Part shown: positions 3,367 to 56,463 of the stretch, piece after piece
How positions within the stretch are numbered: position 1 is the stretch's first letter
How the letters are laid out: the number at the start of each line of letters is the position of its first letter
From: a bacterium
GTDB lineage: Bacteria; Gemmatimonadota; Gemmatimonadetes; Gemmatimonadales; Gemmatimonadaceae
Direction of reading: 5' to 3'
Assembly (NCBI GenBank): GCA_021813725.1
Contig: JAKAJN010000005.1
Coordinates: 2,449-62,305 of the forward strand
DNA length: 59,857 bases
Translations under genes and position numbers: made by a program
The notes under the pieces: model-generated
Told to the model about the DNA's origin: nothing
Seen by the model: the letters and a program-made list of their open reading frames with translations, nothing else
Databases searched by the model: none

Positions 3367-3903
3367 TCACCGTGTGGGGTTCGAGGGGGCGCGGTAGATC
3401 GTGACCGCCGTGTCGCCATACTCGTAGCGGCGCCCGCCGGTGGGGAGCACGTGCGTCGCGGCATGCTCGGCGACGAAGACGCGCGCGAAAAGCGTCGCCC
3501 GCCAACTCTCGATCACGCGGTCGAGCATGCGCGATTCGTACGGGGGGTCGCAGAAGCAGATGTCATACGCGCCGAACGTCGTGAGCGCCGCGGCGAATGG
3601 TAGCGCATCGCGCTTGAAGATTCGCGTGCGCTCACGCGCGCGTAGGGCGGCGACGTTGGCCTTGAGCGCGTGCAGGCTGGCCGGGCGCGTCTCCACGAAG
3701 TCGGCGCGCCGCGCGCCGCGCGAGAGTGCCTCGAGGCCCAGCGCCCCCGTGCCGGCAAAGAGGTCGAGTACACTGGCATCCGTGAGATCGCCCTTGAGCA
3801 GATCCAGGATTGCTGCGCGCACCTTCTCGGCGGTGGGGTGCACGCGAAAGTCGCGTGGCGACGTCAAGTCGCGACCGGCCCACTTGCCGCCGACAATCCT
3901 CAC
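3367..3903 (-). CDS. rsmD: 16S rRNA (guanine(966)-N2)-methyltransferase
   Basis: A 178-residue Rossmann-fold S-adenosylmethionine methyltransferase. MRIVGGKWAGRDL at the N-terminus and HPTAEKVRAAILDLL are RsmD hallmarks. The SAM-binding motif I is DLFAGTGALGLEALSRGA (47-64) and the catalytic motif is CDPPY (118-122). It methylates G966 of 16S rRNA in the 30S subunit. It starts at a GTG overlapping the stop codon of the upstream serine hydrolase by 4 nt, so translation is probably coupled. In many genomes rsmD is followed by coaD, which is absent here. Confidence 0.93.
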   Translation of the reverse strand: MRIVGGKWAGRDLTSPRDFRVHPTAEKVRAAILDLLKGDLTDASVLDLFAGTGALGLEALSRGARRADFVETRPASLHALKANVAALRARERTRIFKRDALPFAAALTTFGAYDICFCDPPYESRMLDRVIESWRATLFARVFVAEHAATHVLPTGGRRYEYGDTAVTIYRAPSNPTR

Positions 3904-5651
3904 GGGCGGGCGAGCGTCACAGGGCCGCCCGGCGTCGCGGCAACGGCGACGCCACCCGCGAACGTCAGTCGGAGACTGGCTCCGCCGCGGGGGTCGAAGG
4001 TGCGGTACTCGCCACCCTTCGACGGAACGAGTTCCACCGCCGAAAACGGCCGTGCCCCCAAGTCCTCGATGCGCCGGCTTCGGTTGAAGGTGTAGATGTT
4101 GGTTGCGCCACCGCGCTCGAAGTTGAGTCGCACGGTGGTGCGAAGGCCTCCTTCGGGGCCGCGCAGCGAGCCAACCACCTCGGCCGACCGAAAGGCGCCG
4201 AGCCGTTCGCGGCGCCCGGTCATCAGGTCGGCCTCCTGGCGCGCCACTTCGGCGGAGTCGGGGCCGCCCTCTCCGATCGCGGCGAGCAGGGGGCCGATGT
4301 TGCCGGCCACCAACCCCTGCACGATGCCCAACGCGCGTGCGTTCGCCTCGGCGGCTCCCGGTGGTGATGTTGTGTCACCGTTCACCAGCAGGCCGTATGC
4401 CTGCTGCCCCACCGCCTCGGCCATCAACCGGCCATTTGCCACGCGCAACGTGAGGCGACTGCCGTCGGCCAGTCGATACTCGCCCGCCGCGGCCGCCAGG
4501 GCCTGCGGTGTGACCGTGACCCGTTCCGGTGGAAGTTCGTACGCGTCGCCGAACGCGATGCGTGTGAGCACGCGCACTGCCTGCGTTGCCGTGAGCTCGG
4601 CGACGGTGGAGGTCACGAAGAGCGTGACGCTGTCGTCCACGAAGCGCAGGAACTCGGCGACGTATACGCCGTTGCCGCCGTTGTGCGTGATCAACCGCGT
4701 GCCGCGCCGCGTCTTCATCACCGCCCAGCCGTAGGCGTACTGCGACGCGCTGTCGGGTCCCTCGTACACGTAGCCGGTTGTGAACTTGCGGCGGCTCGAG
4801 TCGGTGAGCACGCGCGCGTCGTTGAGTGCGGCGTCCCAGCGCGCCATGTCGCCGAGTGTCGTGTGCAGGCCGCCGTTTCCGCGCAGCGCCCAATACGGTG
4901 CGTCAGCGGGAGCGATGCGGTCCACGATGGTTCCCCAGTCGCGGCCGTTCTGGTAGCCGTGCGCGATGCGCTCCGCCGGCCAATGCGGCGCCTTGTAGCC
5001 CGTGGCGTCCATGCCTGCCGGGCGCAGCACCAGCTCGCGCAGCGCCGACTCGTAGTCGGTTCCGGTGACGATTTCCACAATCGCAGCCAGCAGCGAATAG
5101 CCCGCATTGGAGTAGAAGTGGATGCGTCCGGGCGGATTGCGAAGCGGGGCGGCGAACATGCGTTGCACGTATTCGTCGCGCGTGGTCGGCTCGTAGTCGG
5201 TGGGTGAAAAGTCCGACTTGAAACCGGCCGTGTGGGTGAGCAGCTGGTGCAGCGTGATGCTACGCTTGTCTGCTGGCGCGTCCGGGAAGAAGCGTGCGAG
5301 CGAATCGGTGGTGCGCAGGCGGCCCTGCTCCTCAAGCCGCAGGATGGCGGCCGCCGTGAACTGCTTGGTGATGGAGCCCAGGTTGTAGACGGTCGCGGTG
5401 TCAGCCACGAGGCCCGCGGCGCGGTTGGCCATTCCGTAGCTGCGTTCCACGACAACGCGGCCATGGCGCGTCAGCAGCACGCCGCCAGTGTAGCCCAGAT
5501 TCTCAAGGCGCATCATGTACTCGTCAACACGCGCCGCCGCATCAGCGTCGGTTGGCGAGGTCCCCTGTGCCAATGCGCCTGAAGCGACGCCGAGGACGGT
5601 GCCGGCGACAGTCAGGCCGGCGAACAGGCGGAGACGGGTGCGCATGCGCAT
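3900..5651 (-). CDS. exported serine hydrolase (beta-lactamase/class C family) with C-terminal extension
   Basis: A 583-residue protein with an N-terminal signal sequence ending near ASGALAQG. The class C serine hydrolase fold is shown by SITK at 93-96 (nucleophile S93, K96), YSN at 180-182 and HNG at 323-325, which replaces KTG. The motif LHQLLTHTAGF is also typical. After about residue 380 there is a second, beta-rich domain like those following beta-lactamase folds in esterases or peptidases. It probably hydrolyses peptides or esters in the periplasm; antibiotic resistance should not be assumed. A second ATG at 5645 is possible. TAATAT at 5654-5659 could be a -10 for a nearly leaderless transcript. 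Confidence 0.88.
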   Translation of the reverse strand: MRMRTRLRLFAGLTVAGTVLGVASGALAQGTSPTDADAAARVDEYMMRLENLGYTGGVLLTRHGRVVVERSYGMANRAAGLVADTATVYNLGSITKQFTAAAILRLEEQGRLRTTDSLARFFPDAPADKRSITLHQLLTHTAGFKSDFSPTDYEPTTRDEYVQRMFAAPLRNPPGRIHFYSNAGYSLLAAIVEIVTGTDYESALRELVLRPAGMDATGYKAPHWPAERIAHGYQNGRDWGTIVDRIAPADAPYWALRGNGGLHTTLGDMARWDAALNDARVLTDSSRRKFTTGYVYEGPDSASQYAYGWAVMKTRRGTRLITHNGGNGVYVAEFLRFVDDSVTLFVTSTVAELTATQAVRVLTRIAFGDAYELPPERVTVTPQALAAAAGEYRLADGSRLTLRVANGRLMAEAVGQQAYGLLVNGDTTSPPGAAEANARALGIVQGLVAGNIGPLLAAIGEGGPDSAEVARQEADLMTGRRERLGAFRSAEVVGSLRGPEGGLRTTVRLNFERGGATNIYTFNRSRRIEDLGARPFSAVELVPSKGGEYRTFDPRGGASLRLTFAGGVAVAATPGGPVTLARP

Positions 5652-5794
5652 GGATATTAGTCAGAATCAGGCGGCCTAGCGTTGCCGCCACGGGCGCACT
5701 CTGGCGATTCGGCCCGTGGCAGCGCTTCTTAGGAACGTCGCAAGCGGGCCTCGCCTTCGTGCGCCCGCCCGTCTCGCACTACTCCGGAGCTGCC

Positions 5795-6250
5795 ATGCGT
5801 CCCTTTATTCCCGTCCTTCTCGCCGCTGCCCTCGGCGGCTGCACGATGCACGTCCAGCGGTCGTCGGCGCCGCAGGCCGCACCGACCATCGAGACCGGCG
5901 CAACATCGGGCGCGCTGGCCCAAGTCTACTATTGGCGTGCGAAGCCGGGAAAGTTCGACGAATACTCGCGATACATTCGCGAATTCGCCGAGCCCATCGA
6001 TCACGAGGCCGGCCGACGCGGCGCGTTTGTGAGCGTCACCACCTACGTGGCGCATGACACCGCGAGCGCCTGGACGCACATGCGCGTCTTCGTCTTGCGC
6101 GACAGCGCGCAACTGCGTGCGCTCGGCGGTGCGCTCGACAGCGCGGGCCTGCGGCTCGAACCCGACAGCGTCAAACGGCGCCTCCGCGGCGAGTACTCTG
6201 CCTCGCTGCGCGACCGCGTCGGCGCCGTGACGGTCGAGATTCTGCGGTAG
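5795..6250 (+). CDS. predicted lipoprotein, unknown function
   Basis: A 151-residue protein with a short hydrophobic N-terminus and a lipobox, LAAALGGC, so it is predicted to be lipidated and anchored. The mature part (QVYYWRAKPGKFDEYSRYIREFAEPIDHEAGRRG is its opening region, residues about 42-75, summarised) resembles small dimeric alpha/beta-barrel or monooxygenase-like folds, but I cannot assign a family. The open frame extends upstream to 5552, antisense to the serine hydrolase start; the ATG at 5795 is chosen because it gives the signal sequence. It converges on the DinB gene with a 5-bp gap. Confidence 0.72.
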   Translation: MRPFIPVLLAAALGGCTMHVQRSSAPQAAPTIETGATSGALAQVYYWRAKPGKFDEYSRYIREFAEPIDHEAGRRGAFVSVTTYVAHDTASAWTHMRVFVLRDSAQLRALGGALDSAGLRLEPDSVKRRLRGEYSASLRDRVGAVTVEILR

Positions 6251-43640: not shown

Positions 43641-44018
43641 ATGACCGCCATGCTCGGTCCGCTCGCGCAGGTCGCCGTCACCTTCAAGGACGTGCCGCGC
43701 GCCGTCACCTGGTACCGTGATGTGCTTGGCCTTTCGCTGCTGTTCGAGACCGGCGGCATGGCGTTCTTCGCGATGGGCGACGTGCGCCTGATGATGACGA
43801 CGGCGGAGAAGCCGGAGTTCGACCATCCCGCGTCGGTGCTCTACTTTCGGGTGCACGACATCAGCGCGGCGTTCCTGGCACTCGAGGCACGCGGCGCGAC
43901 GTTCGAAGACAAGCCGCACCTCGTCGGAAAGATGGGGAGCACGGAGATCTGGATGTTCTTCGTGCGCGATCCCGAACAGCACCTGCTCGGCATCACCGAG
44001 GAGCGCGCCGGTACCTAG
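43641..44018 (+). CDS. VOC family (glyoxalase-like) protein
   Basis: A 125-residue single VOC domain made of two beta-alpha-beta-beta-beta units. VAVTFKDVPRAVTWYRDVLGLSLLFETGGMAFFAMGD is the first unit in outline, and FVRDPEQHLLGITEE is the second-unit end with a likely metal Glu. Function ranges from dioxygenase to antibiotic-binding protein; undecided. ATG 43641 is the family start. The stop overlaps the convergent kinase gene's end by 4 bp. Confidence 0.88.
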   Translation: MTAMLGPLAQVAVTFKDVPRAVTWYRDVLGLSLLFETGGMAFFAMGDVRLMMTTAEKPEFDHPASVLYFRVHDISAAFLALEARGATFEDKPHLVGKMGSTEIWMFFVRDPEQHLLGITEERAGT

Positions 44019-45943
44019 CCCAGTTCAGCGAGCTGCTCCTGGAGAATGGCGGCGCTGGCCGGGCGATCCGCGGCGGACTTGGAGAGGAGCCGCATGACGA
44101 GTGCGGAGAGTGCTGGGGGCACGTCGGCGTTCCGTGAGACCGGTGGCGTGGGCTCCGCTGTCAGTACGCGCGCAATCAGCGCCACCGCGCTGGGGGCGGA
44201 GAACGGCGCCTCGCCGGTGAGGCACTCGTACATCACCACGCCCAGCGAGTACAGATCGGCGCGCGGGTCAATCTCTTCGCCGACGAGCTGCTCGGGCGAC
44301 ATGTACGCGGGCGTTCCCACCACCATTCCGGTCTGCGTGCGAGTGGAGGTCGCCTCGGCGAGACGCGCGATGCCGAAGTCCATCACCTTCAGCACGCCGT
44401 CGCCATCAATGAGCGCGTTCTCGGGCTTGATGTCGCGGTGGATCACGCCCGCATCGTGCGCGACTGACAGCGCCTCCGCGAACTGCCGCGCGACGGCCAG
44501 CGTACTGGCCACGCCGAGTCGGCCGCGCGTCGTCAGCAGCTCGCGCACGGTGAGCCCCTGCACAAGTTCCATCGTTACGAACAGGTGCCCGTCGGCGTCG
44601 CCGAGGTCATGCGTGCGCACCACGTTGCGGTGGGAAATGCGCCGCGCCAGGCGAATCTCGCTCTTGAGCCGCTCGGCGAGCACGGCGTCCGATGTCACCA
44701 GTTCGCGCCGGATTGTCTTGACCGCCACGTCTTCGTTGAGCTCGCGGTCGCGCGCGCGATACACGACGCCCATACCGCCGGTCCCAAGCACGCTGACCAC
44801 ATCGTAGCGTCCGGCGAGTACTGTCCCCGGTGGGAACGCGCCATCGGCCGTCTCCCGCTCCTGGAGCGCCTCGAATTCGTTCGTGGCGAGCGTCACGTCC
44901 GACTGCAATTCGCGCAGCTGCGCGCGCAGTCGCGACTCGCGGGCCCGCACGCCGGCCGCCATCGCGTCGAACACTCGCGCCAGCCGCCCCAGCTCGTCGT
45001 CGCGCCCGGTCACGCCGGCGAGCGTGCCGGCCACGTAGGCGCCCGATTCCACCGCGCTGGCTGCCTCGATCACGCGCGACACCTGCCTCAGGTAGTCGGC
45101 TTCTCGGTCGTGCCAACGCTTCTTCTCGAGCGACGCGCCGATGCGCGCGCGCAACAGCACCGGGTCGAATGGCTTGGTCAGATAGTCCTCGGCACCGTGC
45201 TCGATGCACCGCACCACGCTGGCGAGATCATCGAGCGCCGAAATCATGATCACCGGAATGCTCCGCGTCGCCGCGTCGCTCTTGATGCGCTCGAGCACCG
45301 CGAAACCATCCATGCCCGGCATCAAGACGTCGAGGAGCACGAGGTCGAACGCCCCCTGCGCAACGAGGGCGAGTGCCGCCTCTCCCGAATCGGCGCTGGC
45401 GGTATCGTATCCTTCGCGCCCCAAGCGGCGCGCAAGGACCGCGCGATTCTCCTCGACGTCGTCGACGATCAGGATGCGTCCCTTCGCATCGGCGCGTGGC
45501 ACTGGAAGTTCGGCGGCGCTTCCGGCGCTTGGCGTGGTTCGCATCGCGTCACGCCGCTCCGCGAGCGCCGACGGCACCGGCACTGCGGTCAATCGGCCGA
45601 CCGCCTGCGCGATGCGCTGCACGTCGGTGGCGAATTGGGCGTCGCGCTCGCCGACAAGCAGTTGCTCGGTCACGGCAAGCATCTTCGCCTGCGGCGCGAT
45701 GAGCGCGGTCAGCAGTTGCGACAGGTCATCGAGCGTGGCCACACCGGTTGGCGGAAGCGCGGCGTTGATGGCGCCAAGCACCTCATGCGCCACGGCGATG
45801 ATGTCGTCAATGCACAGGGCGTCCGCCGATCCGTCGGGCGCGTCCTCGCGCAGCATCTCGGCGTACCCGAGGATGTGGTTGACCGGCGTGCGCAACTCGT
45901 GGCGCAGTTCCGACGCCGCCTTCGGGTCAAGCGGCGTGATCAT
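44015..45943 (-). CDS. HisKA-receiver-HAMP-like-Ser/Thr kinase chimera
   Basis: A 642-residue cytosolic protein. Residues 8-60 are a HisKA-type helix with intact H-box (RHELRTPVNHI, H15), but no HATPase domain follows. Residues 155-272 are a receiver with acidic pocket D161/D162, phospho-acceptor D205 and K257. About 292-345 is the HAMP-like linker seen in receiver-cyclase proteins (DDELGRLARVFDAMAAGVRARES). Residues 380-640 are a complete Ser/Thr kinase: GTGGMGVVY, K409, HRDIKPEN (D504), DFG (D522), SPE. It is the last gene of a three-gene operon; ATGA overlap with the receiver gene upstream. It probably converts phosphorelay input to Ser/Thr phosphorylation. Confidence 0.9.
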   Translation of the reverse strand: MITPLDPKAASELRHELRTPVNHILGYAEMLREDAPDGSADALCIDDIIAVAHEVLGAINAALPPTGVATLDDLSQLLTALIAPQAKMLAVTEQLLVGERDAQFATDVQRIAQAVGRLTAVPVPSALAERRDAMRTTPSAGSAAELPVPRADAKGRILIVDDVEENRAVLARRLGREGYDTASADSGEAALALVAQGAFDLVLLDVLMPGMDGFAVLERIKSDAATRSIPVIMISALDDLASVVRCIEHGAEDYLTKPFDPVLLRARIGASLEKKRWHDREADYLRQVSRVIEAASAVESGAYVAGTLAGVTGRDDELGRLARVFDAMAAGVRARESRLRAQLRELQSDVTLATNEFEALQERETADGAFPPGTVLAGRYDVVSVLGTGGMGVVYRARDRELNEDVAVKTIRRELVTSDAVLAERLKSEIRLARRISHRNVVRTHDLGDADGHLFVTMELVQGLTVRELLTTRGRLGVASTLAVARQFAEALSVAHDAGVIHRDIKPENALIDGDGVLKVMDFGIARLAEATSTRTQTGMVVGTPAYMSPEQLVGEEIDPRADLYSLGVVMYECLTGEAPFSAPSAVALIARVLTAEPTPPVSRNADVPPALSALVMRLLSKSAADRPASAAILQEQLAELG

Positions 45944-46311
45944 GCGGGCGGCGCGCCCAAGGCAGTCATCTTGCCGAGCAGGCGCTCCAGGTCCACCGGC
46001 TTGGTGTCGTAGTCGTTACACCCCGCCTCGATGGCCTTGTCGCGGTCGCCCGACATGGCGTGGGCGGTGAGAGCGATGATCGGCATCTGCCCTGCGTCGC
46101 CGCCGGCGCGAATGCGGCGCGTTGCTTCCCACCCGTCGATCTCGGGAAGGCTCATGTCCATCAGCACGAGGTCCCATCCGCCTTCGAGCGCCCGCGACAC
46201 GCCATCGAGACCGTCCACCGCGAGTTCGACGGTATAGCCGCGACGCTGGAGTCGGCGCGACAGCATGTCGCGGTTCATTTCGTTGTCTTCAACCAGGAGG
46301 ATGCGCGGCAT
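45940..46311 (-). CDS. stand-alone response regulator receiver
   Basis: A 123-residue single receiver domain (CheY/Spo0F-like). ILLVEDNEMNRDML carries the acidic pair, D52 in LVLMDMSLPEIDG is the phospho-acceptor, ALTAHA holds the conserved Thr, and TKPVD the Lys. No output domain is present, so it likely acts as a shuttle in the phosphorelay between the hybrid kinase upstream and the HisKA/receiver kinase downstream. It overlaps the kinase gene by 4 nt and starts 8 nt after the hybrid kinase stop. Confidence 0.92.
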   Translation of the reverse strand: MPRILLVEDNEMNRDMLSRRLQRRGYTVELAVDGLDGVSRALEGGWDLVLMDMSLPEIDGWEATRRIRAGGDAGQMPIIALTAHAMSGDRDKAIEAGCNDYDTKPVDLERLLGKMTALGAPPA

Positions 46312-46319
46312 GGCGACGG

Positions 46320-49253
46320 TCAGGCTGGGGGCGGGAGCGCAGGACGGCGCCGCATCAGCAGGCGGATATCACGCGCGAGGTCGAGTTGCGAATAGGTGCC
46401 CTTGGTGAGCACGTCGCTGACGTGGCCGTTGAGGCGCTGGCGTTCCTCGCGCGACACGTCCTTGGCGGTCACGACGATCACCGGGATCTGTCGCCAGGCC
46501 TCGACCTGGCGCAGTTCGGTGATGAACGTCGCGCCATCCATCACCGGCATCATCAGGTCGAGGAGAATCAGCGACGGCGTGACCCCCGCCATCTGCTCCA
46601 ACGCCACGCGTCCGTTCTCCGCTTCGACGACCGTCCACCCCTCGCGCATGAAGCCGCGCGCCAGGGTGTGCCGCGTGGCGGCATCGTCCTCGACGATCAG
46701 CACGGTCCCCGTGGCGGCGGCCTGGTGCCGGCGCAGGATGCGGCGCAGTTGGGCGCGGTCAATCGGCTTCGTCACGTATTCCGTGGCGCCGAGCGCGAGG
46801 GCGAGCTGCTGCTCGTGGAGGACGGACAGCATGATCACCGGCACGTCGGCAAGCGTGTCGTCGCCGCGAATGCGGCGAAGCACTTCCCACCCGTCCATTC
46901 CCGGCATCAGCACGTCGAGCGTAATGGCGTCAGGGCGCACGGTGCGCGCCAGTGCGAGTCCCGCGTTGCCGTCGGCGGCTTCCTCCACACGGAAGCCATC
47001 CACGGCGAGCGCATTGCGCAGCAGTCGGCGCGCGTCCGGGTCATCGTCGATCACGAGCACCGTCCCCGCGGAGCCATCGCCTTGCTTGGGGGTCGTGGCT
47101 AACGATGCGGTTGACGACACGCGACGCGCGAGGTCCACGCGCGCTGGAATGCGCAGCGTGAAGGTGGAACCCACGCCGGAGCTGCTGGCGACCTCCACGC
47201 CGCCTCCCATCATCTCGCTGAAACGGCGCGTGAGCGCGAGCCCAAGCCCCGTGCCGCCATATCGCCGCGAGGTCGACGCCTCGGCCTGACTGAATGACTC
47301 GAAGAGGCGGGCCACCTGTTCCGGTGTCATCCCGATGCCCGAGTCACTGACGGCAAACGACAGGTCGTCGCCGTGCGCGCCAGGCACGCGCCGAACGGCG
47401 AGCGTGATGTCCCCGCGCTCCGTGAACTTGCAGGCGTTGGAAAGCAGGTTCAGCAGCGTCTGCCGCACCTTCACCAGATCGGCGTGCATGTCGCCGAGCG
47501 CATCGTCGCGACGCACGGCGAGCCGGTTGTCGTTCTTGGCGACCATCGGCTGGATGGTAGTTGCCACTTCGTCGAGCATTGCGTTGACGTCGAACGTCTC
47601 GAGGTAGAGTTCCATCTTGCCCGCCTCGATCTTCGACAGGTCGAGCACATCGTTGATGAGGCTCAGCAGGTGCTTGCCCGCGGTGTGGATCTTTCCCAGG
47701 TCAGCGACGAAGCTCTCGAGCCCCGCGTCCTGCGCTTCCTCCTGCAGCATCTCGCTGTAGCCGATGATGGCGTTGAGCGGCGTGCGCAGTTCGTGGCTCA
47801 TGTTGGCGAGGAACTGGCTCTTGGCCCGATTGGCGCCTTCGGCTTCGCGCCGCGCCTCAGTCAACTCGCTGATGTCGTGGTACATCCCCATCAGCGCCAC
47901 GCGCGACTGGTCGGCGATGACCGGCACGCCGAGGATCTCGACATCCACGAACGTGCCATCCTTACGGCGGCGGCGGCCGATCCCCTTTACCGGGCGGTCC
48001 ACCGCGTCGCGGCTATACTGCTCGGCTTCGTGCAGCGTGTTCGGGTCGGTGATGATTTCGTCGAGGATGTGTCCGCGGGCCTCGTCGAGTGTGTACTGAA
48101 ACAGCTCCTCGAACGCCGGATTGCACCCCGCCACGCGGTAGTCCGTGTCGAGCTGGACGATGGCGACGGGGCTGTTGTTGAGCAGGGAACGGAAGAACTC
48201 GCGTTGGCGCGCCGCTTCTTCGTAGAGGCGTGCTCCTTCGATGGCGATGGCCGCCTGCGGCGTGAAGAGATTGAGCAGGCGCAGGTCGTCGGCGCCAAAC
48301 TCGCGCTTCGGGTCGGCGTCCACAATGGCAATGGCGCCCACCAGGCGATTGCCCACGAGGAGCGGCGCGGCGACGACCGATTTCACCGAGACGGTCGCGT
48401 ACTTGGCCGACTGGCCCAACCAGGCGTGATAGTCCGGAATGATGAGTGGTTCGTGCGTGGTGGCGACGAGCCCCATGGCCCCTTCGCCGATCTTCAACCG
48501 AATGCCCGTCGTGTCGGAGCCCACGTTGTAGCTCGCGACGACTTCCAGTTCCTCCTTGTCGCGGTCGAAGATGGCGAGTTCGCCACCCGTGACGCCGAGC
48601 AAGGCGACGGTGCGTTCGACGGTGGCCTGCAAGGTCTTGGGGAGTTCACGCTGGGTGAGCAAATCGGCCATCGATGCGATCACCGCCTGCTGTTCATCGG
48701 CGCGCCGGCCCTGCGTGACGATGAGCCGCGCACGGGCGATGGCGATGCTCGCCTGGTTGGCAGCGGCGGTGAGAATCTCGAAATCCGAGTCGTTGAACGC
48801 CTGCGGCTTGGTGCTCTCGACGGCGAGCACCCCGATGACGCGTCCATCAATGATGAGCGGCACGTCCACTTCGGAACCGCTGTTGAGCGTCGGCTCGTAA
48901 TTCGACTCGCGGCGCACCGCCGGCGTGTAATGCAGCTTCCCGTCGAGCAGGGCGCGTTCGCTGATGCCGTGGCCGGGCGGCAACCGAAACCCCGGCTGGG
49001 CCGCCTTCCATCCGACGGAGGCGACCATCACGCGGTCGCCCGTCTTGTCGTCCACGAGGAAGACGCCGAGGAAGTTGTACCCCAGCGCTTCGTCACGCAG
49101 GCCGGTGACAACCGACTCGCAGATCTGTTGTTCGTCGGTGGCGGCGGCAATGGCCGAGCTGAGGCGCAGCAACGCCGACTGGCGGCGCGCGGCGCGACGC
49201 ATCGCGGCGGACGAAGACAACGGCTGCTTCTTCGCGGGGGGCTTGGTCGCCAT
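46320..49253 (-). CDS. hybrid sensor histidine kinase GAF-GAF-PAS-HisKA-HATPase-REC-REC
   Basis: A 977-residue protein with no membrane segment. GAF 1 is at about 35-178, GAF 2 about 200-345, PAS about 350-470, HisKA with H487 ([14 protein letters not shown]) about 475-545, HATPase about 590-705 (N box [23 protein letters not shown]), receiver 1 about 730-845 (D780), receiver 2 about 850-970 (D899). The GAF and PAS domains suggest sensing of cytosolic small ligands or redox state. It starts the operon and would feed phosphoryl groups to the lone receiver and the Ser/Thr kinase chimera. ATG 49253 is preceded by GGAGGGGG-type purines. Confidence 0.93.
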
Positions 49254-49412
49254 CGGAGGGGGCCGAAGGGGTCCGACTAAGGCAGCGTCTATAGTACGGT
49301 GCCCCGGCAGGTGGCGATAGCACCCCCGGCGAGCATAGCTTGTGAGGTTCGTTCGACGACCGACGGCGGTTGTCGCCGACGGCGTGGTGGTCTCCCCCGA
49401 CCGGAGGTGTTG

Positions 49413-49973: not shown

Positions 49974-51178
49974 TTCGACGAGTGATCCTGTTCGTTGGGA
50001 TGACGGCGGCGGTCGCCGGGGCGCAGGGGCGTCCCGGCGGGCCGCCGGGGACCGCGGGTGGTGTGACGATCAAGGACGGCGAGGAGTGTCCGCCGGGAAT
50101 GACAGAGGTGCGGCCGCGCAATTGTCGCGCGCCGGAGCTGCCGGTCCCTTCCATTCTCGACTATCGCCCGCGATCGACGCTCGTGACGGCCGAGCATCTG
50201 GTGCCGAAGGCCAAGTATCCCGTGATCGATTTTCACGGGCATCCCAACGCGCAAATGCAGAGCCTGCCGGCATTGGAGCAGATGGGGGCGGAGATGGACG
50301 CGCTCAACATCGGGCTGATGCTGACGGCAAACAACACGAGTGGCGAGGCGCTCAAGCGGCAGTCGGCGCTCGTGGCGTCTGATGCGAAGATGAAGGATCG
50401 AGTGCGGATTCTGGCCGGCGTGGACTTTCGCAATGTCGGCCCCGGGTGGGCAGCGAATGCGGTGGCGCAGCTCGACGCGGATATTGCGGCGGGGGCGGTG
50501 GGCATCGGCGAGATCGGCAAGGGGCTGGGGCTGTCCATCAAAAAGGCCGACGGTACTCGACTCCGCATCGACGATCCCGAGCTGGATCCCGTCTGGGATG
50601 AAGCCGCGCGCCTCAAGATCCCTGTGTTCATTCACACGGCGGATCCGCAGGAGTTCTGGGACGAGATTGACTACACGAACGAGCGGTGGTTGGAACTCGC
50701 GTTGTTTCCCGGACGGCGGTATCCCAAGGAGCAGTTTCCGTCGTTCGAGCAGTTGATGACGGAGCGGGACAATCTCTTCAAACGGCATCCCAGGACGACG
50801 TTTGTCGCGGCGCATCTGGGGTGGCACGCGAACGATCTGGGGCGTCTGGGTCGGATGTTCGACGAGATGCCCAACGTGTACGCCGAGGTCGGGGCGGTGT
50901 TGTACGACATTGGTCGTCAGCCGCACGGCGCGCACGACTTTTTCGTGAAGTACCAGGATCGGCTGCTGTTTGGGAAGGACAGTTATCAGCCCGAGGAGTA
51001 TCCGTATTACTGGCGCGTGTTCGAGACGCGCGACGAATACTTCGATTACTACCGGCACTATCACGCCTTCTGGAAGCTGTACGGCATCTACCTGCCCGAC
51101 AGCGTATTGAAGAAGGTCTACTACCAGAACGCGCTGCGGATCACGCCGAAGCTGCCGCAGGACGGGTGGCCGAAGTAG
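49970..51178 (+). CDS. exported amidohydrolase_2-type hydrolase
   Basis: A 402-residue protein with signal region (RRVILFVGMTAAVAGAQG). It has the metal site VIDFHGHPNAQ (HxH), a ligand region VFIHTADPQEFWDE, FVAAHLGWHAND and the final Asp in LLFGKDSYQPEEYP. These are the amidohydrolase_2/ACMSD-like landmarks, so decarboxylase or hydrolase chemistry is expected; the substrate is unknown. ATG 49970 overlaps the membrane-protein stop (ATGA); ATG 49955 is the alternative start. The pair is likely an operon. Confidence 0.85.
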   Translation: MIRRVILFVGMTAAVAGAQGRPGGPPGTAGGVTIKDGEECPPGMTEVRPRNCRAPELPVPSILDYRPRSTLVTAEHLVPKAKYPVIDFHGHPNAQMQSLPALEQMGAEMDALNIGLMLTANNTSGEALKRQSALVASDAKMKDRVRILAGVDFRNVGPGWAANAVAQLDADIAAGAVGIGEIGKGLGLSIKKADGTRLRIDDPELDPVWDEAARLKIPVFIHTADPQEFWDEIDYTNERWLELALFPGRRYPKEQFPSFEQLMTERDNLFKRHPRTTFVAAHLGWHANDLGRLGRMFDEMPNVYAEVGAVLYDIGRQPHGAHDFFVKYQDRLLFGKDSYQPEEYPYYWRVFETRDEYFDYYRHYHAFWKLYGIYLPDSVLKKVYYQNALRITPKLPQDGWPK

Positions 51179-51240
51179 GTCGTGCCCGGACACGTGGCTC
51201 TTTGCCGACTGTCATCCGGTTGAGACGCGAGAGGAAAGTC

Positions 51241-51870
51241 ATGAGCAAGGTATTCGTCAACATCGGCCTCAGCCTCGATGGCTACATGGCTCCGGACGGG
51301 ATGACCATGGAGAATCCCGGGTACAAGAACTGGGGTGCGAAGTGGGGTGCGCTGATGGCGTGGATCATCAATCAGCAGTACTTCCGCAACAACCTCAAGC
51401 TCGGACCCGGGGGAGAGACCGGCCCGGTCAACGACCTGCTGCGCGACACCACGGAGCGCATCGGCGCCAACATCATGGGCAAACGCATGTTCGACCAAGG
51501 CGAACGCGCCTGGCCGGAGGAGGCTCCATTTCACACACCGGTCTATGTCCTGACCAATGAAAAACGCGAACCTTGGATGCGCCCTGGTGGAACGACCTTC
51601 TACTTCATCAACGACGGGCCGGAGCCCGCACTGGCGCTCGCTCGGGAGTCTGCCGGCAGTCGCGATGTTCGGATCGCGGGTGGCGCCGATGTGATCCAGC
51701 AGTACCTGAACCTGGGTGTCGTCGACGAGTTGGAAATCGCGTTGGCGCCGGTGCTGTTCGGCAGCGGGCGGCGTCTCTTCGAAAACATTCGCGAACCCGG
51801 GCCGCAGTTTCGCATCGACAAGGTTCTCGATGGTCCCACCGCCACGCACGTGCGCTATGTGCGTCGGTGA
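51241..51870 (+). CDS. RibD-C/dihydrofolate reductase-like protein
   Basis: A 209-residue protein of the RibD C-terminal/DHFR-like family. KVFVNIGLSLDGYMAPDG is the nucleotide-binding start, IMGKRMFDQGE and PVYVLTNEKRE follow, and DVRIAGGADVIQQYLNLGVVDELEIALAPVLFGSGRRLFE is the conserved C-terminal block in outline. It probably reduces a pterin- or flavin-like substrate with NADPH. The longer upstream frame overlaps the amidohydrolase; ATG 51241 has GAGAGGAAA. It is the first of three paralogues here. Confidence 0.9.
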   Translation: MSKVFVNIGLSLDGYMAPDGMTMENPGYKNWGAKWGALMAWIINQQYFRNNLKLGPGGETGPVNDLLRDTTERIGANIMGKRMFDQGERAWPEEAPFHTPVYVLTNEKREPWMRPGGTTFYFINDGPEPALALARESAGSRDVRIAGGADVIQQYLNLGVVDELEIALAPVLFGSGRRLFENIREPGPQFRIDKVLDGPTATHVRYVRR

Positions 51871-54942: not shown

Positions 54943-55281
54943 CGACGCCCAAGTGGCGCGTCCGCGACAGGCCCTCGAACCGGCGACGGCCTTCAATAGG
55001 CAAGGCCCCTCCGCAGGGCCGCGCGGATGCGTTGTCCCCACGTCGCCATCGTCACCTCCCCGGGCTCACTCGGGCGCGCCGCTGGCGGGCCGGATCTCGG
55101 ATGCCATACACTTTGTCATATCAAGTGCGCGTCAGGAACGTCGCGGTCAACAACGCCGATCCGCCGACGAACTGGAGTGCTGAGTGCGAAGCGGCGGCCC
55201 AAGTGTCATGGCGCCAGCTCGCGACTGCCTTGCATCTTCTGGAGCATCACGCCGGCTCCACCCGCCGAAAGGAGCATCTCC
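54943..55281. other. 339-bp region without a supported gene
   Basis: The stretch between the GNAT and RibD-like genes has open frames in several phases but none with family features or a good ribosome binding site. A small stem (GGCCC/GGGCC near 55006-55022) is present. It may hold promoter sequence for the downstream gene or degraded coding DNA. Confidence 0.5.
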
Positions 55282-55878
55282 ATGTCGAAGGTCATTGCCA
55301 TCATGTCCATGTCGCTCGACGGCTTTGTCGCTGATCGCCATGATGGTGTGGGCGACGTCTTCGACTGGTACTTCAACTCGGGGGACGTCGCGTTCAGCAC
55401 CGGTGGCGCGGATCCAATGACGTTCAAGGTGTCCGCGCCGAGCGCCGCCCATCTACGTGGACTCTGGTCCGAACTCGGCGCCGTGCTCACCGGGCGACGG
55501 ACGTTCGAAGTCGCGCACGGCTGGGACGGCAATCATGCGTGGGGGCCGGCCTTTGTGCTGACCCACCAGACGCCCGAAGGATGGCCGCGTCCCGATTCGA
55601 CAGTTCAGTTCGTGACCGACGGCATCGAAAGTGCGGTGCGGCGGGCCAAGGCCGCCGCGGGCACGAAGAACGTCGGCGTCCACGGCGCCGACACCATCCA
55701 GCAGTTGTTGAACGCCGGACTGCTCGACGAGATCCACGTGGACGTCGCGGCGTGCCTGCTTGGATCGGGCGTTCGGCTCTTCGAGCAGCTCGCGGGCACG
55801 CCAATTATTCTTGGCAATCCGACGGTGGTTGCGGGCGTCGGAGTCACTCACCTGCGCTACGCGGTACGCCGCGCGTAG
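55282..55878 (+). CDS. RibD-C/dihydrofolate reductase-like protein
   Basis: A 198-residue protein with KVIAIMSMSLDGFVADRHDGVGDVFDWYF at the start, LGAVLTGRRTFEVAHGWDG, FVLTHQTPEGW, and the C-terminal block NVGVHGADTIQQLLNAGLLDEIHVDVAACLLGSGVRLFE in outline. NADPH-dependent reductase fold; substrate unknown. AGGAG lies 8 nt before the ATG. The open frame upstream (to 55027) lacks family sequence. It is followed after 15 nt by another paralogue. Confidence 0.9.
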   Translation: MSKVIAIMSMSLDGFVADRHDGVGDVFDWYFNSGDVAFSTGGADPMTFKVSAPSAAHLRGLWSELGAVLTGRRTFEVAHGWDGNHAWGPAFVLTHQTPEGWPRPDSTVQFVTDGIESAVRRAKAAAGTKNVGVHGADTIQQLLNAGLLDEIHVDVAACLLGSGVRLFEQLAGTPIILGNPTVVAGVGVTHLRYAVRRA

Positions 55879-55893
55879 CCGACACCACCTCCC

Positions 55894-56463
55894 ATGCGCC
55901 CCCTACGCTACTCCATCAACGTCACGCTCGACGGTTGCTGCGATCATCGCGCCATCATCCCCGACGAAGACCTGCATCATCACGCCACCGAGTTTCTTGC
56001 ACAGGCCGATGCCCTGCTGTTTGGCCGCGTGACGTACGAGTTGATGGAAGCGGGTTGGCGACATCCCGCACCACCCGGGGCGCGGCCAGCGTGGATGGAG
56101 CCGTTCGCGCAGACCATCGACAGGGCGAAGAAGTACGTGGTATCCAGCACGCTGCCCCGCGTCGACTGGAACGCGGAGCTCGTGCGCGGCGATCTCGCGA
56201 CGGCCGTGCGGCAGCTCAAGGAGATGCCCGGCCGGGGAGTGGCGGTGGGTGGTGTGACGCTGCCGCGGGCATTGGCCGAGCTGGGGCTCATCGACGAGTA
56301 CGAGATCATCGTGCATCCGAGGATCGCGGGCCACGGGCCGAAGCTGTTCGCCGGTCTCTCGAAGCCGATTGACTTGAAGCTCGTGAGCCAACTGGAACTC
56401 CGCTCCGGTGCGGTGGCGATGCGATATGAGGTCCTGAGGTTTGTCGAGGCGCAGGACCCCTGA
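55894..56463 (+). CDS. RibD-C/dihydrofolate reductase-like protein
   Basis: A 189-residue member. LRYSINVTLDGCCDHRAIIPDEDLHHHATEFL, ADALLFGRVTYELMEAGW, KKYVVSSTLPRVDWNAELV and GVAVGGVTLPRALAELGLIDEYEIIVHPRIAGHGPKLF (outlined) are typical of the dihydrofolate reductase-like branch found beside AHSA1 and ArsR genes. The function is unknown; co-transcription with the preceding paralogue is likely. Confidence 0.9.
   Translation: MRPLRYSINVTLDGCCDHRAIIPDEDLHHHATEFLAQADALLFGRVTYELMEAGWRHPAPPGARPAWMEPFAQTIDRAKKYVVSSTLPRVDWNAELVRGDLATAVRQLKEMPGRGVAVGGVTLPRALAELGLIDEYEIIVHPRIAGHGPKLFAGLSKPIDLKLVSQLELRSGAVAMRYEVLRFVEAQDP

Follow-up and report, generated by a model that had tools for sequence, protein, structure and literature searches.

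Known kinds of signalling component include phosphorelays, DHp phosphotransferases and receivers that carry enzyme outputs. In the Spo0F-Spo0B-Spo0A relay a lone receiver passes its phosphate to a kinase-derived DHp-type phosphotransferase, and this in turn to a receiver with an output; Spo0B forms homodimers in which each subunit has one hairpin and a degenerate ATPase-like part. Hpt domains, which relay between receivers, are one-chain four-helix bundles with one active histidine, and two DHp hairpins in one chain are said to have been engineered in a monomeric EnvZ with tandem A domains. In the Caulobacter MrrA-PhyK-PhyR system the HisKA2 protein PhyK takes the phosphate from a single-domain receiver and transfers it to a response regulator (PMC5964349). 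Here we describe a three-gene locus in a stretch of 59,857 nt (the window below) of a Gemmatimonadaceae genome (assembly GCA_021813725.1, contig JAKAJN010000005.1, positions 2,449-62,305), where a hybrid histidine kinase and a lone receiver are followed by a 642-residue chimera that joins an ATPase-free tandem DHp head to a receiver, a HAMP-like/signalling helix and a Ser/Thr kinase.

The locus shares the lone receiver, a putative DHp-type phosphotransferase and the output receiver with Spo0F-Spo0B-Spo0A, but Spo0B is a dimer of single hairpins whereas the chimera has two hairpins in one chain and a protein kinase output. In its AlphaFold model the head resembles an Hpt domain (PF01627) as a one-chain four-helix bundle with one histidine; unlike such a domain, it has no Hpt match, is homologous to HisKA and shows a visible internal repeat. 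The engineered EnvZ differs in being man-made and in retaining its ATPase domain. The order of single-domain receiver, kinase-derived DHp phosphotransferase and response regulator is also that of MrrA-PhyK-PhyR, but PhyK is a separate HisKA2 protein with ATP-binding motifs, whereas the DHp tandem of the chimera is ATPase-free and fused to a receiver and a Ser/Thr kinase (PMC5964349). Literature searches of partial coverage found no description of a single-chain tandem DHp or of the three-gene module, a weak kind of absence; in the portion seen of PMC3899027 the "tandem" of HisKA/DHp means DHp plus CA domains, and the word "receiver" is absent from the portion seen of a survey of bacterial Ser/Thr kinases (PMC1262709). 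Within the reach of these searches, both the output-swapping module and the reading of a single-chain tandem DHp as an Hpt analogue are new.

Architecture of the locus and of the chimera

A sequence-only reading of this DNA had described three tightly packed phosphorelay genes, the last combining a HisKA H-box without ATPase domain, a receiver, a HAMP-like linker and an intact Ser/Thr kinase. The genes lie as it placed them, all on the minus strand: the hybrid kinase (46320-49253, 977 aa) is separated by 8 nt from the lone receiver (P0002, 45940-46311, 123 aa), which overlaps the chimera (44015-45943) by the 4 nt ATGA, and the residues it named (H487, D780, D899, D52, H15, D205, K409, D504 and D522) are all present in the translations. 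By Pfam the hybrid kinase, the relay's likely start, reads GAF-GAF-PAS-HisKA(H487)-HATPase_c-receiver(D780)-receiver(D899). The lone receiver, a Response_reg match with D9, D52, T82 and K104, is likely a Spo0F/MrrA-like carrier linking the kinase to the chimera. All parts of a phosphorelay are present, namely a HisKA and HATPase_c kinase, an intermediate receiver, a second histidine and a final receiver, with their site residues intact; a scan against ncbifam returned generic kinase and regulator names only.

In the chimera the HisKA profile (PF00512) matches residues 10-39 with 29.2 bits, above its curated cut-off of 26.9, and the H-box RHELRTP is intact. No HATPase match was found in Pfam at E <= 1, which rules out a hidden ATPase domain and leaves the chimera outside the histidine kinases. 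The Hpt profile gave no match up to E 1 in the chimera and matches 7 other sites in the genome, and no Spo0B family model is among the 11 Pfam families that the chimera matches at E 1 or better. While the ATPase-less H-box of the earlier description stands, its single HisKA helix does not, as the head consists of two tandem hairpins. The first (residues 7-62, 45758-45925, minus strand as all coordinates of the chimera; helices 7-34 and 40-62) is recognized by Pfam HisKA and AlphaFold and carries H15 in its H-box; the second (residues 71-117, 45593-45733; helices 71-80/82-95 and 102-117) is degenerate and was found with hhalign, from relatives and with AlphaFold.

Alignment of the profile of residues 8-66 to that of residues 67-124 by hhalign scored 30.9 (P 2.5e-6), and 32.7 in the opposite direction, while the best of 300 column shuffles reached 23.3 (0 of 300 as good), 31 other windows of the chimera at most 13.4 and a reversed half 8.3. 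Where the first copy has LRTP, the second mostly has forms like LREP or LRAP; in the window chimera T79 stands there at the place of the histidine, counted from the shared proline (P84 aligned to P20). Four distant relatives (L100, L104, L111 and L119) have two Pfam HisKA matches ahead of the receiver. AlphaFold folds the N-terminal part into a single-chain four-helix bundle (pLDDT 94.5, pTM 0.87); the helix moments, for which 21 to 261 of 2000 shuffles were as high in the four bundle helices and 422 in the linker, are suggestive at most. Residues 7-117 are probably, on this modelling, an Hpt-like single-chain pseudo-dimer of a histidine kinase DHp, and we infer that the bundle is monomeric.

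The head is followed by a linker (residues 118-155, 45479-45592; AlphaFold confidence low at 129-151) and a receiver (residues 156-270, 45134-45478; Response_reg at 157-268), recognized by Pfam and by conservation, with D161/D162, D205, S235 and K257. Residues 271-372 (44828-45133) comprise the receiver's last helix, continuing to residue 300, a HAMP-like element and a long helix at 317-367; in the full-length AlphaFold model the last helix of the receiver runs on into the HAMP-like and long helices. The HAMP profile (PF00672) matches residues 286-333 with 18.7 bits, below the cut-off of 25, and the relative L067 scores 25.8. Residues 373-641 (44021-44827; Pkinase at 380-637, 179.5 bits) form a complete PknB-like Ser/Thr kinase domain, as intact as had been claimed, with the catalytic Lys, the Glu, the HRD Asp and the DFG Asp (K409, E429, D504, D522), as well as N509 and the activation-loop T536, which we take to be the counterpart of a PknB autophosphorylation threonine.

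Recurrence and conservation in Gemmatimonadota

Matches extending into the N-terminal part of the chimera occur in at least 24 of 151 genomes of the order, the window genome included, and in a sample of the phylum 24 of 298 genomes match at E <= 1e-95, one of them outside the order yet within the class. These counts rule out that the chimera is a lone oddity. Flanking sequences were fetched for 24 homologous loci from 23 genomes, the window genome excluded (fetched homologous and related loci are labelled with L numbers). The three-gene order recurs in 22 of the 24, each with a lone receiver directly upstream that is preceded by one to three same-strand hybrid kinases in a row, as far as the fetched stretches extend, and the identity of the lone receiver across these 22 loci is 63-91%. 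By eye, in about half of the 22 the single lone receiver and chimera are preceded by two or three consecutive hybrid kinases, an arrangement in which several sensors might converge on one output. Loci L042, L044, L045 and L050 have three tandem hybrid kinases ahead of the single lone receiver and chimera.

All 23 operon members (the 22 loci and the window; L060 and L061 left out) share H15, R18, T19, P20, D161, D162, D205, S235, K257, K409 and E429 without variation, and the 22 members whose kinase is complete in the assembly also share D504, N509, D522 and T536. Conservation and the recurring gene order put the arrangement well beyond coincidence. The proposal that an ATPase-less HisKA could act as an Hpt-like feeder of its own receiver, and so switch a Ser/Thr kinase, is supported by this conservation, in particular that of H15 and D205, by the absence of an ATPase domain and by gene order. 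The residue following the H-box histidine has a role in autokinase activity; it is E or D in 21 of the 23 and N or H in two, which would be tolerable if the head needs no autokinase activity. In alignment A1 (21 rows with identity to the window down to 44%; L052, L054, L060 and L061 left out) eleven residues of the first hairpin are invariant (R14, H15, R18, T19, P20, N22, G26, Y27, E29, E33 and D34). Mean identity is 16% over 22 orthologues in linker residues 125-154 and 32% in the second hairpin, and residues 286-345 are about as conserved as the receiver (64% vs 68%).

Relatives with other outputs

A total of 79 relatives was fetched, within a limit of 80 loci ranked by likeness to the window. 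Outputs assigned by Pfam in 78 of them are Guanylate_cyc (36), SpoIIE (23), Pkinase (9), HD_5 (4) and a ParA-like domain (1), and three relatives (L115, L137 and L144) have a second complete HisKA and HATPase_c behind the receiver, which makes their output a histidine kinase that the relay head would drive; L075 is shortened by a stop and L123 ends after the linker. This is in accordance with the sequence-only reading, which knew of cyclase layouts and thought a Ser/Thr kinase output unusual, though it did not name the SpoIIE, HD, histidine kinase and ParA-like outputs. The cyclase, SpoIIE, HD and histidine kinase relatives (among L077-L145) share with the chimera a head of single or tandem DHp and receiver, and often the same upstream genes, and differ in their output and, in part, in their hairpins and histidines. 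All nine Ser/Thr kinase forms are from Gemmatimonadota, which the ranking by likeness and the 80-locus limit favour among kinase forms, and the search for kinase forms was confined to that phylum.

Of the 74 relatives whose upstream sequence covers 450 bp or more, 54 have a lone receiver like that of the window immediately upstream, and a same-strand hybrid kinase lies upstream in 39 of the 61 covered for 3 kb or more; in the fetched flanks no lone receiver was found for Polyangia relatives including Nannocystis (L077, L079, L083 and L120) or for five Ruegeria relatives. Since these genes recur upstream of relatives, the trio reads as a general module with exceptions and not as a Gemmatimonadota invention.

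Two hairpins were counted in 49 of the 79 relatives at a lenient threshold (second hairpin at E < 10), in 36 at E < 0.01 and in 29 at E < 0.001. Two DHp heads were counted in L085; L136 runs off its contig, and the frame of L140 is broken. In these three tandem sets, taken from the most lenient to the strictest, both histidines are kept in 15, 13 and 13 relatives, the first only in 27, 16 and 9, and the second only in 7, 7 and 7, L081 (lenient set only) being out of register. No tandem relative in any of the three sets lacks both histidines, a pattern that is suggestive, short of significance. Alignment A2 was made without L140 (15-aa frame), A3 and A4 without L085, L136 and the hairpin-less and single-hairpin rows, and A4 also without L075, L114 and L117. 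In L085, a Myxococcales relative (3624-6086, plus strand), the two DHp heads lie 225 residues apart in one frame.

Output labels placed on receiver trees need 16 or 17 changes, where 6 is the minimum possible, and outputs have therefore probably been swapped several times; well-supported branches alone force 2 or 3 changes (cyclase, SpoIIE). The Ser/Thr kinase form is one group with support 80 in a quick receiver tree, while a careful tree needs two changes and 0% of its 200 bootstrap trees have a single origin; an AU test did not reject one kinase-form clade (p 0.57, the held tree being 3.3 log units better). The trees were built without L075, L068, L076, L062 and L085, and the careful tree and AU test also without L060 and L061.

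As for the origin of the parts, in relatives such as L104 the sequence from hairpin 2 onward aligns with the HisKA of the window's hybrid kinase and into the start of its ATPase region (43% over 129 residues), and L104, L096 and L123 each have, after hairpin 2, a stub that can be aligned to where the ATPase region of the kinase begins. By this alignment the head resembles a hybrid kinase whose ATPase was lost and whose DHp was duplicated. Residues 270-345 of the chimera are identical at 42 of 76 positions to L123, an Anaerolineae protein without a kinase domain, and the HAMP-like linker of the earlier description, present if sub-threshold, forms with the receiver an older unit, found also in L123 and L135 without a Ser/Thr kinase. 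The kinase domain is 60% identical (162/271) to that of L063, a membrane receptor of the same genome, in which a membrane sensor (transmembrane and Cache-like parts, both read by eye) replaces the phosphorelay head. In a kinase tree chimera and receptor kinases are grouped (99), apart from 11 other kinases, and the receptors are placed weakly inside the chimeras. Inheritance of the HAMP-like linker together with the kinase from such a receptor was ruled out, as the linker is closer to the receiver linkers of L123 and L135 (31/60 to L123 vs 17/53 to the HAMP of L063). In L123 (7881-9236, plus strand), whose head ends after the HAMP-like linker, a large ATPase-like gene and a ParA-like gene are found further downstream, and in L135 (450-2696, plus strand) a ParA-like domain is fused to the head.

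The proposed relay and its alternatives

We propose that the GAF/PAS hybrid kinase autophosphorylates on H487 and that the phosphate would pass to D52 of the lone receiver, via D780/D899 or directly, from there to H15 in the one-chain bundle, where only the first of the two hairpins has the histidine, and then to D205 within the same chain. Once phosphorylated, D205 may change how the last helix of the receiver packs; this helix is continuous with the HAMP-like/signalling helix, and we would guess that pairing through the HAMP-like and long helices with a second copy of the chimera then activates or silences the PknB-like kinase. We see in the bundle a putative Hpt analogue, descended from a histidine kinase in which the ATPase disappeared and the DHp hairpin was duplicated. 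The computations show the domains, the residues and their conservation, the gene order, the duplication, the one-chain bundle as a model and the swapping of outputs; the phosphotransfer steps, their order, the dimerization through the linker and the effect on kinase activity are inferred, and the whole is, in our estimate, moderately probable. Our confidence is a little lower, barely better than even, in a broader proposal: that the DHp, duplicated in one chain after ATPase loss, is a second and independent Hpt, that the usual homodimer in this way turned into a monomeric bundle free to lose one of its two histidines, and that the head, together with the lone receiver and hybrid kinase dedicated to it, serves as a plug-in module whose outputs (cyclase, SpoIIE phosphatase, HD, histidine kinase, ParA-like ATPase, and Ser/Thr kinase in Gemmatimonadota) have repeatedly been swapped. 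The same genome also carries, at L158 (contig C225, 5549-8318, plus strand), unfused genes for an Hpt (131 aa), a receiver (158 aa, overlapping by 4 nt) and a Ser/Thr kinase (627 aa) in a row, a separate hint that phosphorelays may feed Ser/Thr kinases in this genome.

A number of observations weigh against the tandem bundle and the relay. Searched by itself, the window chimera yields the second hairpin at a non-significant E 2.7, and the tandem case therefore rests on the profile; the hairpin reaches E < 0.01 in 6 of the 23 operon members only (best 8.7e-6, in L056), and the hairpin model, built from 93 hairpins of chimera-family proteins, was trained on the very proteins it scores. When the second half is shifted circularly, so that parts of the repeat are kept, it still scores 17 to 31 against the first, as expected of a local alignment, and the orthologue L040 has a histidine at the second-copy position. 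A Foldseek fold search with the bundle returned generic single-chain four-helix bundles, none at E <= 0.001; no DHp or Hpt is named among the matches listed (50 for each search), which is evidence neither way. The full-length AlphaFold model has a pTM of 0.55, so the placement of its domains says nothing on the geometry between H15 and D205. Among the relatives 22 carry a single hairpin, and five (L121, L124, L126, L134 and L142) have none ahead of the receiver in the frame as called, so the family can work without the bundle. That no tandem relative lacks both histidines is weak given the kinship of the rows, five of the seven second-only ones being Ruegeria. Within Gemmatimonadota L060 and L061 are diverged chimeras with neither lone receiver nor hybrid kinase as neighbours, L060 with an altered H-box (His kept, LRTP lost) and L061 without the first helix. 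L061 (6342-8054, minus strand; the second copy in genome G015) also has Gly in place of the DFG Asp and is perhaps a pseudokinase.

The hybrid kinase could instead phosphorylate D205 directly, with the tandem DHp as a docking or phosphatase module and the lone receiver as a competing sink. T19, a Thr of the phosphatase type in HisKA DHp domains, never varies among the 23 operon members, in the five Ruegeria relatives the kinase is followed by the chimera with no lone receiver found, and the five hairpin-less relatives keep the receiver-output core, all of which would suit such a direct route. However, a pure docking bundle needs no histidine, and H15 is as invariant as T19, with no tandem relative devoid of both histidines; the lone receiver, kept at 63-91% identity in the 22 loci, also speaks against this route. 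We consider the direct route rather unlikely. His-Asp relays are generally reversible and the sequence sets no direction, so the Ser/Thr kinase or small phosphodonors could also load D205 and the DHp drain it to the lone receiver, turning the kinase off; the hybrid kinase is, however, complete (HisKA and HATPase_c) and has homologues upstream in 22 of 24 loci, which argues for forward flow and makes this reversal very improbable. Least credible to us is that the bundle is a decayed remnant without phosphotransfer and that D205 and the kinase act alone. The degeneracy of the second copy and the fast divergence of linker and second hairpin would fit decay, but the first hairpin keeps its eleven invariant residues, H15 included, in the 21 rows of A1, and decay is confined to the two operon-less loci among 24.

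Neighbouring genes

A plus-strand open reading frame (ORF), by eye with a glyoxalase-like product, ends at 44018, 3' of the chimera, which is for this reason probably the last gene of its transcription unit; another plus-strand ORF starts at 49299, upstream of the hybrid kinase. Further along the window, three plus-strand ORFs (50686-51870, 55027-55878 and 55894-56463), by eye of the dihydrofolate-reductase/RibD type, lie within 6 kb.

Conclusions

The hybrid kinase, lone receiver and DHp-receiver protein can be named as a widespread three-gene signalling module, which in Gemmatimonadota ends in a Ser/Thr kinase. If the proposed relay is true, the chimera would be a natural one-protein converter of the His-Asp code into the Ser/Thr code, and its family would record a route from a dimeric kinase domain to a one-chain phosphotransfer domain, with living intermediates that keep two histidines or either one.

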